This document shows positions 44,950 through 47,545 of a stretch of 64,000 bases of DNA, piece by piece. The stretch's first letter is position 1; each line of letters opens with the position of its first letter. The notes under the pieces were generated by a model. The model saw nothing but the letters and a program-made list of their open reading frames with translations. It was not told the DNA's origin and ran no database searches. Source of the stretch: Oscillospiraceae bacterium (GTDB lineage: Bacteria; Bacillota; Clostridia; Oscillospirales; CAG-272); the NCBI GenBank assembly GCA_015064585.1, contig SVRY01000010.1:1-64000 (forward strand), in the 5' to 3' direction. The translations under genes and the position numbers were made by a program.

Positions 44950-46431
44950 ATGCAAAAAGGCTTTGATAACCAAAAATATCTCAGCTTGCAATCCGACTGC
45001 ATTCGGAAACGAATCGGACAGTTTGGCGGTAAGCTATATCTGGAACTGGGCGGCAAGTTATTCGATGATTATCATGCCAGCCGTGTGCTCCCGGGCTTTG
45101 AACCGGATAGCAAGATCCGTATGTTTGAGCAGCTCAAAAATGAAATTGAGATCGTGATCGTTATCAACGCAGGCGACATAGAGAAAAGCAAAAAGCGCGG
45201 CGACTTAGGCATTACCTATGACGATGATGTTCTGCGTTTGACCGACGCTTTTGGCAGGCTTGGTTTTCTTGTGGGTAGCGTTTGCATCACCTGCTATACC
45301 GGTCAACCCGGCGCTGATGCCTTTATTCGCCGCCTGCAACGCCTGGGCATCAAGAGTTATCTCCACTACCCCATTGACGGTTATCCCTCAGATATCAAAA
45401 AAATCGTCAGCGACGAAGGCTACGGCAAAAATCAATACATAGAAACCTCCCGTCCGTTGGTTCTGGTCACAGCGCCCGGCCCCGGAAGCGGGAAAATGGC
45501 TGTCTGTCTCTCCCAGCTCTACCATGAACACAAACACGGTGTACGGGCAGGATACGCCAAATTTGAAACCTTCCCCATCTGGAATCTGCCGCTTCGGCAT
45601 CCGGTCAACATGGCATACGAAGCCGCCACTGCGGATCTTGACGACATGAATATGCTGGATCCCTTCCATCTGGAAGCATACGGCGAAACAGCGGTAAATT
45701 ATAACCGCGATGTGGAGATCTTCCCCGTGCTGAAAGCCATGATGGAAAAGATCTTAGGGCAATCTCCCTATAAATCACCCACCGATATGGGGGTCAACAT
45801 GGCGGGATTTTGCATCTATGATGATGCAGTTGCCCGTGAGGCATCCTGCCGCGAGATCCTGCGCCGATATTATCACGCACAAGTGGCAATTCGTCAAGGT
45901 GAACCTGCCGAAAACCAAAAAAGCAAATTGGAACTGTTAATGCAGCAATTGGGCGTCACCGACGAGCTTTGCCCCGCCATTGAAATTGCCCGTGCCAAAG
46001 CCGAAGCCACCGAAGCCCCTGCGGGTGCCATGGTATTGCCAAACGGAAAAGTGGTCACCGGAAAGACCAGTTCTCTGCTTGGTCCCTGCGCTGCGCTTCT
46101 TCTCAATGCCCTCAAGTCCCTTGCTGGCATTCCCAAGCATCAGGAACTGATCAGCCCGCAAACGCTGGAGCCTATTTGCCAATTAAAGATCGAGCATCTG
46201 CGCAACCGCAATCCCAGACTGCATTCCGATGAAGTAATGATCGCGCTGTCCATCAGTTCGGTCACCAACCCCTCTGCCGCCGCCGCGCTGGCACAGGTTA
46301 AAAACCTCAAAGGATGCGACGCACACTTCACCGTCATCCCCTCCTCCGTGGATGAAAAAATATACAAAAAGTTGGGTATCAATGTTACCTGCGAACCGAA
46401 ATATCAAGTGTACAAATTGTATCACGGATAA
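44950..46431 (+). CDS. DUF1846 family protein (UPF0371)
   Basis: A 493-residue member of the DUF1846 family, which is widespread in Firmicutes and structurally known but without a proven reaction. It shows the N-terminal FDNQKYLSLQSDCIRKRI, ELGGKLFDDYHASRVLPGF, the nucleotide-loop-like VTAPGPGSGKMAVCLSQLY near residue 180, and KFETFPIWNLPLRHPVNMAY. The C-terminal lobe holds ITCEPKYQVYKLYHG-type sequence usual for the family. The glycine-rich loop suggests nucleotide or phosphate binding, by inference. GAGGGTGACACT precedes the ATG. Confidence 0.92.
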   Translation: MQKGFDNQKYLSLQSDCIRKRIGQFGGKLYLELGGKLFDDYHASRVLPGFEPDSKIRMFEQLKNEIEIVIVINAGDIEKSKKRGDLGITYDDDVLRLTDAFGRLGFLVGSVCITCYTGQPGADAFIRRLQRLGIKSYLHYPIDGYPSDIKKIVSDEGYGKNQYIETSRPLVLVTAPGPGSGKMAVCLSQLYHEHKHGVRAGYAKFETFPIWNLPLRHPVNMAYEAATADLDDMNMLDPFHLEAYGETAVNYNRDVEIFPVLKAMMEKILGQSPYKSPTDMGVNMAGFCIYDDAVAREASCREILRRYYHAQVAIRQGEPAENQKSKLELLMQQLGVTDELCPAIEIARAKAEATEAPAGAMVLPNGKVVTGKTSSLLGPCAALLLNALKSLAGIPKHQELISPQTLEPICQLKIEHLRNRNPRLHSDEVMIALSISSVTNPSAAAALAQVKNLKGCDAHFTVIPSSVDEKIYKKLGINVTCEPKYQVYKLYHG

Positions 46432-46432
46432 T

Positions 46433-46475
46433 AAAAAGGCTTTTCCCTCTTGCTTTTGAGGGGAAAGCCTTTTTT
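46433..46475. terminator. Bidirectional terminator after the DUF1846 gene
   Basis: Stem AAAAAGGCTTTTCCC/GGGGAAAGCCTTTTT with a short loop; it ends the DUF1846 gene and the converging gene at 46474. Confidence 0.9.
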
Positions 46476-46884
46476 ACGGTTCCATATAATCTCTCACGAT
46501 CCGTTCAAAGCCGGTTATGTCTTCCGAAAGCGGCACATGGATGGAAAAACGAATGCCGGCTTCATCTTCGATTGGCATGATGCTTACCGTATTTTCTCCG
46601 CTTGACACAATCTGCCTTAACAATGAGAGATCAAGAGAAGTAAATATAAACATCGGCAGAATCATATGGATATGCCCTTCCATGGGAAAAGAACCCTTTG
46701 TGATCTGAACCGAAATGTTGCCCTTCAGATCCTTTACATATTGATTGCAGAAAACAGCAAGACGGTAAAAAACCACTGCTTTTTCGGAATTTGCCTTGAC
46801 AGATTGAAAACAGCCTTCCATATCCGCAGGCGGCTTTGGGTCAGCATAGTTTGCTTCATAAATGCAGTGAACATTCAGTGACAT
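46474..46884 (-). CDS. Unrecognised small protein behind a long structured leader
   Basis: A 136-residue soluble protein that I do not recognise. It reads as a mixed alpha/beta fold: MSLNVHCIYEANYADPKP, a helix around EKAVVFYRLAVFCNQYVK, strands NISVQITKGSFP and GHIHMILPMFIFT, and a C-terminal FSIHVPLSEDITGFERIVRD. The ATG at 46884 has a good GGAGGCAAT site. The frame stays open for 187 codons upstream, but that stretch is hairpin-rich leader and is not protein-like. Its promoter lies about 510 nt upstream at 47395-47423, so translation or transcription may be controlled by the leader RNA. Confidence 0.7.
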   Translation of the reverse strand: MSLNVHCIYEANYADPKPPADMEGCFQSVKANSEKAVVFYRLAVFCNQYVKDLKGNISVQITKGSFPMEGHIHMILPMFIFTSLDLSLLRQIVSSGENTVSIMPIEDEAGIRFSIHVPLSEDITGFERIVRDYMEP

Positions 46885-47390
46885 ATTGCCTCCAATATAT
46901 GTAAATAAGGAGAGCAGTTGTATTGCCGATACTCCGTGTGTCATAGCACACGGAGCGGCAGACAACAAGCTCTCCCGAAACAAAAACCGTGTGGAGGATA
47001 ATCCCCACACACGTCTCACATCACTGCAATCCATGACCGCAAACCGCCATCTGCCCAATCGGTGGACGGTTGTTGGCTTTTTCATGTGGAATACCCTGTT
47101 TATCCTGCGGTCATCGGTGGTTGCGACACCGATAGCCGAGACGGCTTTTGCTCCCAAAGAGAACTCAAGCGTTGCGGTACGGAAACAAAAAATCCGTGCC
47201 CGATCCGAAGCGACCGACACGGAGAGAGGAAAAAATTCCATCGCGAAAAATCCTATTCTCGGAAACCTCTTGAAAAAACGCAAAAGATGTGTTATACTAT
47301 CTAATGGGTGTCGGTTATCCGATTGTATAGGAGTGCCCTGTTCGCTTCTGTGCAGGGCTGTCGTAGTTGCGATACGGCAGCCTGCCTTTT
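46885..47390 (-). ncRNA. Structured leader or long ncRNA upstream of the 46474 gene
   Basis: About 505 nt dense in hairpins, transcribed from the perfect promoter at 47395-47423. Seen stems include GGAGAGC/GCTCTCC enclosing CTCCGTGTG/CACACGGAG (46909-46975), GTGTGG/CCACAC followed on the minus strand by GGTTTTTG (46982-47010), the long-range pair TGACCGCA/TGCGGTCA (near 47034 and 47106), and CCGTG/CACGG followed by ATTTTTTG (47186-47222). Two elements, 47088-47137 and 47330-47382, are related: both contain GGA-T-CCCTGTT and a stem with the loop GTTGCGA on the plus strand, and the stem bases change in a compensating way. I match it to no RNA family. Confidence 0.55.
47270..47298 (+). promoter_or_regulatory. 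Promoter of the opposing short RNA
   Basis: TTGAAA at 47270-47275, a 17-nt spacer, TATACT at 47293-47298, pointing against the leader promoter. Confidence 0.6.
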
Positions 47391-47392
47391 TT
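47305..47392 (+). ncRNA. Candidate short RNA, antisense to the leader start
   Basis: From the promoter at 47270, a transcript of about 88 nt would contain TCGG-ttat-CCGA, GCCCTG/CAGGGC and the terminator stem GGCTGTCGTA-GTTGCGA-TACGGCAGCC followed by TGCCTTTTTT. The second and third stems share three bases and so compete. No plus-strand gene follows, so a free small RNA is likely, complementary to the 5' end of the minus-strand leader. Confidence 0.5.
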
Positions 47393-47394
47393 AT

Positions 47395-47423
47395 ATTATA
47401 CAGCAAAAAACAATTTTTGTCAA
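47395..47423 (-). promoter_or_regulatory. Promoter of the structured leader
   Basis: On the minus strand: TTGACA at 47423-47418, a 17-nt spacer, TATAAT at 47400-47395. It is a perfect consensus promoter. Confidence 0.85.
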
Positions 47424-47545
47424 CTGTTTTCCCAAAATTGCGCAAAACCGAAAAAACATCGGAACATCATTTTCTCAATGATCAAACAATTTTCAAAAGT
47501 TTTAAACACCTCAAAATATAGGTTGCTTTTTGCCTTTTGGGATTC

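Follow-up and report, generated by a model that had tools for sequence, protein, structure and literature searches.

A probable antisense-RNA-controlled tandem transcription attenuator with variable, matched loops in Oscillospiraceae and related Clostridia

The segment at positions 46885-47423 of a 64,000-nt stretch of DNA from an Oscillospiraceae bacterium (contig SVRY01000010.1; this whole stretch is referred to as the window) is best explained, we believe with good confidence, as an antisense-RNA-controlled tandem transcription attenuator, and it is very probably a stand-alone RNA switch by which transcripts are ended early. Its antisense component, named S here, is by the covariation of its homologues a conserved structured RNA family. 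A wider reading, to which we would give an even chance, is that the locus represents an unnamed family of antisense-RNA attenuators, widespread in Clostridia (Oscillospiraceae and relatives), whose S would act twice on one nascent leader, as a full complement and then at a two-loop kissing site, with loop pairs changing in lockstep, and in which up to nine copies per genome would be mutually orthogonal, possibly bistable switches.

Two promoters face each other in the segment. The minus-strand promoter of the leader RNA, R, lies at 47395-47423 (P_R, of sigma-70 type, TTGACA-17-TATAAT) and agrees with the consensus at 12/12 positions, and the plus-strand promoter of S lies at 47270-47298 (P_S, TTGAAA-17-TATACT with an extended -10 TG, 10/12), which at the sequence level places it inside leader R. 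The initial annotation had described a perfect leftward promoter and an opposing rightward one, and both proved to be conserved: by consensus scoring P_R was present in 26/26 homologous loci with a mean of 11.8/12, and P_S scored at least 10/12 in 24/25 homologues, where it ended 5-12 nt upstream of the S start, a score of 10 being reached by 1.2% of control windows. Transcript R is placed at 46905-47389 on the minus strand on the basis of conserved blocks over approximately 480 nt in homologues at unrelated sites, and its first 85 nt or so (A') are the complement of S. In the homologue alignment the conserved unit runs from P_R through a hairpin designated T3, about 480-520 nt, and the flanking genes differ; the segment had earlier been put at about 500 nt, and the unit includes a further terminator, T1 (about 47223-47186), which that description had missed. 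A stretch upstream of P_S at 47225-47268 (AAAAATTCCATC.CGAAAAA..CTAT..CGGAAACCTC) is kept in nearly all close homologues; it may serve S as an UP element or as the site of a regulator.

S is predicted to start at about 47305 and to extend over approximately 85 nt (47305-47390, plus strand, 3' end approximate) as three hairpins, H1, H2 and H3, on a closing stem, with its own terminator at the 3' end formed by H3 and a T-run at about 47390. The predicted fold had an energy of -40 kcal/mol and a z score of -5.1, and the 505-nt minus-strand leader had a folding z score of -4.8, in agreement with the many hairpins first noticed. An alignment of 26 close S homologues gave a structure of 32 pairs in which 98.4% of the pair cells were standard and 12 pairs carried two-sided changes, a result matched by 0/500 shuffles. 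Among the non-Watson-Crick cells of these 26 sequences, read on the plus strand, there were 175 G-U against 1 A-C, which identifies the plus strand as the structured one. A further 44 distinct S sequences were aligned to the S covariance model; 96.5% of cells paired, two-sided changes were found in 27/32 pairs and G-U outnumbered A-C by 268 to 11, figures which lean towards the structure because the alignment was fitted to the model, although the changes were still far beyond both controls. The covariation that had been suggested as a check on the locus was therefore found in both sets of homologues, and the proposal of a sense/antisense RNA pair is strongly supported.

S combines fixed stems with two large hypervariable loops, for which the 26 loci have 24 loop-2 and 16 loop-3 sequences. 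On the plus strand the loop of H2 (CCCUGUU) is at 47336-47342 and that of H3 (GUUGCGA) at 47366-47372, and both loop sequences recur on R about 200-300 nt farther downstream, in the order loop 3 then loop 2, in an element which we call B. In the window CCCTGTT is thus found at 47336-47342 and again at 47094-47100, and GTTGCGA at 47366-47372 and again at 47120-47126, so that the duplicated hairpin element reported earlier is real. Within B, on the minus strand, hairpin B3 (47112-47134) carries the loop UCGCAAC, which A' also has and which is complementary to S loop 3, and hairpin B2 (47089-47105) carries the loop AACAGGG, complementary to S loop 2. The stems of B3 and B2 differ from those of S although the loops match, a pattern which had been described as covariation within one locus and which holds in 22/23 homologous loci.

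The correspondence of the loops is specific to each locus. For loop 2 the longest shared stretch averaged 6.1 nt within the same locus and 4.1 nt against other loci, and for loop 3 the values were 6.0 and 4.2 nt (0/20,000 permutations in each case). A joint search for both loops in 23 loci found both exact in 17 and one mismatch in 5 more, the sole exception being a divergent copy, L062. The match was perfect at both loops in L065, from the metagenome-assembled genome RGIG4237, despite an insertion of approximately 320 nt between A'/T1 and B, and in five copies within that genome each loop pair matched its own B. L065 has its loop 2 in common with another copy, L087, of RGIG4237. Of two further divergent copies, L124 matched B in full at both loops and L130 in full at loop 2 and at 6/7 nt of loop 3. 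Between A' and B loop identity was 97-99% and stem identity 35-47%, which argues for selection on the loops and against recent duplication as the cause of their likeness. On the minus strand B3 had 21 G-U against 2 A-C, making its structured strand the opposite of that of S. S and B thus fold on opposite strands and have complementary loops, which would be the mark of a direct contact of S with R at B, where S should form a kissing complex. B itself looks like a second attenuator unit which has lost its own S promoter and retained the recognition loops and a terminator.

Tandem S units, 2-5 per locus and each with loops of its own, were observed in L120 and L121 (contigs C11 and C16 of genome G154), in L122 and L123 (G185) and in L140 (G478:C84), with a spacing of 180-320 nt in G154 and G185. 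L122 and L123 (G185:C36 and C100), with two S units each, share one pair of loop-2 sequences (TTCTAGG, TCCGTGG) but in reversed order, an exchange that may point to cross-regulation or recombination.

Two conserved intrinsic terminators were found on the minus strand of R. T1, between A' and B (about 47186-47223), is a GC hairpin followed by a T-run and was present in 24/25 homologues scanned. The top of T1 has the sequence of the 3' strand of S hairpin H2 and tracks the variants of that strand (shared motif 7.7 nt within the same locus and 6.0 nt with other loci, 0/20,000 permutations), and for this reason A' could pair with T1. T2, after B (46981-47011), reads UGUGUGGGG-AUUAUC-CUCCACACG followed by UUUUUG and lies downstream of B in most loci. 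The 3' flank of B2 (UCCACA, 47085-47090, minus strand), a candidate antiterminator strand, has its complement at 47004-47009 within the 5' strand of T2. Complementarity of at least 6 bp between this flank and the T2 5' strand was seen in 18/22 loci, with compensatory variants (CUCCCAUC/GAUGGGAG, ACCCUGC/GCAGGGU and UCCCGCC/GGCGGGG); the pairing was weakly locus-specific (1181/20000 permutations between loci) because a CCCCAC/GTGGGG core is common. T3 (46909-46977, minus strand) is a long conserved hairpin, GGGAGAGC...UUGUCUGCCG...CGGCAA...GCUCUCC, with no clean T-run. In most close copies T3, with its UUGUCUGCCG/CGGCAA, lies between T2 and the gene. Where two terminator-like hairpins had originally been placed before the gene, there are thus the terminator T2 and the hairpin T3. 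Distant copies appear to have a simpler plan of S, one terminator-like hairpin and a gene, as a single attenuator would, and in several of them part of the 5' strand of the hairpin is complementary to A', an effect that comes from a few loci (107/20000 permutations). Taken with the competing complementary segments, T1 and T2 support the earlier proposal of an attenuator, in which the alternative antiterminator pairing and termination itself are putative.

In the mechanism that we propose, P_R would drive leader R leftward to the downstream gene and P_S, within the leader, would drive the short, strongly folded S in the opposite direction. S complements all of A' and, through two loops of 6-7 nt, the loops of B3 and B2, and it would kiss the loops of both A' and B. 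Binding of S to A' would block the pairing of A' with T1 and allow T1 to form; binding to B would keep the B2 hairpin closed and its flank off the 5' strand of T2, so that T2 would form. With either terminator formed R would end early and the gene would be off, and when S is scarce R would read through. More R should mean less S, since R contains the S complement and its transcription crosses P_S; facing promoters and complementary products would set S and R against each other, and such a double-negative loop could be bistable. Variation of the loops would prevent cross-talk between neighbouring copies. The anatomy, the structured strands and the lockstep loops are observed; kissing, termination, the direction of control and bistability are inferred. 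Against this explanation count the weak locus specificity of the pairing between the B2 flank and T2, the small number of distant loci behind its counterpart there, the frequent lack of a gene directly after T3 in close relatives, and the expectation that A', in the same transcript, should take up S before B is made.

The regulated gene of this leader is likely the one at 46474-46884 on the minus strand, which has a Shine-Dalgarno sequence (GGAGGC) and encodes a 136-residue protein of no known family. No homologue of this protein was found in Pfam, NCBIfam, PHROGs or 58 relatives, it resembles the small proteins encoded after four other copies only marginally, such that no homology is claimed, and an AlphaFold model had a pLDDT of 42, too low to be informative. 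The segment itself had been judged free of protein-like sequence, and its 323-residue minus-strand frame was indeed not kept, as homologues showed only short, unrelated frames there. An open reading frame follows soon after T3 in the window and in four relatives. In the majority of close relatives whose loops are intact, no recognisable gene comes directly after T3, and the distant copies precede, among others, a gene for a DUF6809 protein and genes for proteins with signal-peptide-like starts. The output genes differ between copies.

These downstream regions bear on a second explanation, which we consider unlikely, that S acts chiefly in trans as a regulator, or that R is a functional RNA in its own right, with A' and B serving as a sponge that inactivates S and no nearby gene being controlled. 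Four loci (L049, L061, L067 and L068) have perfect loops and no gene straight after T3, some of them have an ordinary terminator following T3, and T3 is conserved without a known role, all of which would suit a sponge. On the other hand, two terminators with alternative partners in R would be pointless for a pure sponge, the distant copies lie directly upstream of genes, and the reading frames found soon after T3 in the window and its four relatives also favour control of an adjacent gene.

Searches with the whole segment by blastn in 59 close relatives returned mostly promoter-like matches. A motif, AAAAGATGTGTTATACTAT, is an extended -10 promoter common to L009, L013, L024, L025 and others and draws blastn matches unrelated to the element. 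When the S region was used to search 395 genomes of the family, 16 were positive, with E values down to 5e-32 outside the window's own genome, one of these 16 (G118) being a promoter match only. Scanning 84,980 species for an exact pattern yielded 25 stretches, 23 of which were the element, all in Clostridia or Oscillospiraceae metagenome-assembled genomes, most of them named for deer or goat gut samples; six element copies were found in RGIG4237. Matches in Spirochaetaceae and Chloroflexota (L076, L082) were rejected as chance, judged by their sequence. The S covariance model was positive in 18/395 genomes of the family, 16/394 of the order and one genome outside the order, and by both blastn and this model the window's own genome has one copy. 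In Clostridia (Oscillospiraceae and relatives) a single genome can thus have as many as nine copies of the element. The nine S copies are in genome G572 (L139, L145, L151, L154), where at least three precede genes with secreted-type N-terminal starts, each with different loops, and where one downstream product has, by eye, repeats of leucine-rich type. A divergent S copy (L106/L131, G008:C3) adjoins two small genes that by eye look like XRE-type regulators in a mobile-element-like setting. A genome of the same genus (L158, G001) has the same DUF1846 and NUDIX neighbours with the element absent from the gap between them, and since other cargo is found there the element is accessory. This gap (window 46431-47545) is a variable spot, in which L158 carries other small genes and repeats.

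A sporadic distribution with many copies per genome and absence from the same place in a same-genus genome is also what a type I toxin-antitoxin locus might show, with R as the toxin mRNA and S as the antitoxin, and the layout, in which a structured mRNA is overlapped at its 5' end by a short antisense RNA, is compatible with it. We regard this as quite improbable, since R has no conserved small frame of the hydrophobic toxin type among the loci compared and the downstream proteins, of 120-150 residues, are unlike one another and missing at many loci. Less probable again is a former replication or transfer control of a plasmid or integrative element, of the ColE1 or pT181 kind, which has become chromosomal: hypervariable loops on fixed stems do resemble incompatibility determinants and the location is accessory, but no replication gene lay beside the copies inspected by eye and no phage, plasmid or IMG/VR match to the element was obtained. 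Hairpin-rich sequence is common, but chance hairpins in an intergenic region are refuted by the homologues, the covariation and the lockstep loops, and are a negligible prospect.

The tandem riboswitch offered in the initial annotation is unsupported, as there is no conserved ligand-binding core, the loops vary more than any other positions, and those of A' and B change together. No Rfam riboswitch reached its threshold at the locus (SAM-II, 22 bits against 44 required). Searches of the window and 20 homologous loci against Rfam at gathering and permissive thresholds gave no family match to S or the locus, only tRNAs passing, and the initial annotation had recognised no RNA family with this layout; within the literature covered, which was partial and left most subscription journals outside, no paper was found that names the family.

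An 'apparent dearth' of natural antisense transcription attenuators has been described in synthetic biology as a roadblock to orthogonal sets (PMC3753616). If the attenuator explanation is true, every copy would have a 'key' of its own, and the many copies together would amount to a large natural collection of RNA switches that work independently. Dozens of natural S/target pairs, which differ in their loops and several of which share one genome, would allow the specificity rules of two-loop kissing to be read from sequence and tested together. The genes behind these leaders in gut Clostridia would gain a testable regulator, and the duplicated target raises the question of why an antisense RNA with a full complement needs a second, loops-only site.

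Several described systems share parts of this plan. In ColE1 an antisense RNA of about 100 nt with three small-loop hairpins (RNA I) lies over the 5' end of an RNA of about 500 nt (RNA II) and the loops set specificity; it acts on primer formation at the origin, whereas the locus here has terminators and a second target for the loops, and no origin is known in it. The par locus of pAD1 (RNA I/RNA II) uses antisense pairing through dispersed direct repeats and has a toxin peptide and a shared terminator, whereas no toxin frame was found here. The C4 (c4-a1b1) RNA of phages P1 and P7 is a small RNA whose target recognition uses two short, separate stretches, and it comes from the same strand and promoter as that target; recognition via two short stretches would be common to both, but S comes from the opposite strand. 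Within the partial literature covered, we know of no described system with a second target carrying copied loops together with many differing-loop copies per genome. C4 antisense RNA (RF01695) is listed for Proteobacteria and phages (PMC2864571). Its covariance model gave no match up to E 10 at the locus and up to E 1 in 20 homologous loci, and those of the plasmid ctRNA families of Rfam, e.g. pT181, were also without match at the locus and in 20 homologous loci.

The closest parallels are in mechanism. pT181 has an antisense-RNA transcription attenuator (PMC3753616), and pT181 and pIP501 resemble the present locus in having a short structured antisense RNA opposite a leader, an intrinsic terminator in the leader and loop-loop contact, here a predicted one; they differ in controlling a plasmid replication gene with a single antisense target, whereas the locus here is chromosomal, with a second target B that has other stems and the same loops, two terminators, and many copies per genome with differing loops. 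In Shigella the antisense RNA RnaG kisses two hairpins of the nascent icsA leader and promotes an intrinsic terminator (PMC5394118). RnaG/icsA, set apart here by its description, is a single locus with a 450-nt antisense RNA made inside icsA and no repeated target. On the best reading of these comparisons the S/R locus would work like the pT181 and RnaG/icsA attenuators and, by the tests run, belongs to no Rfam family.
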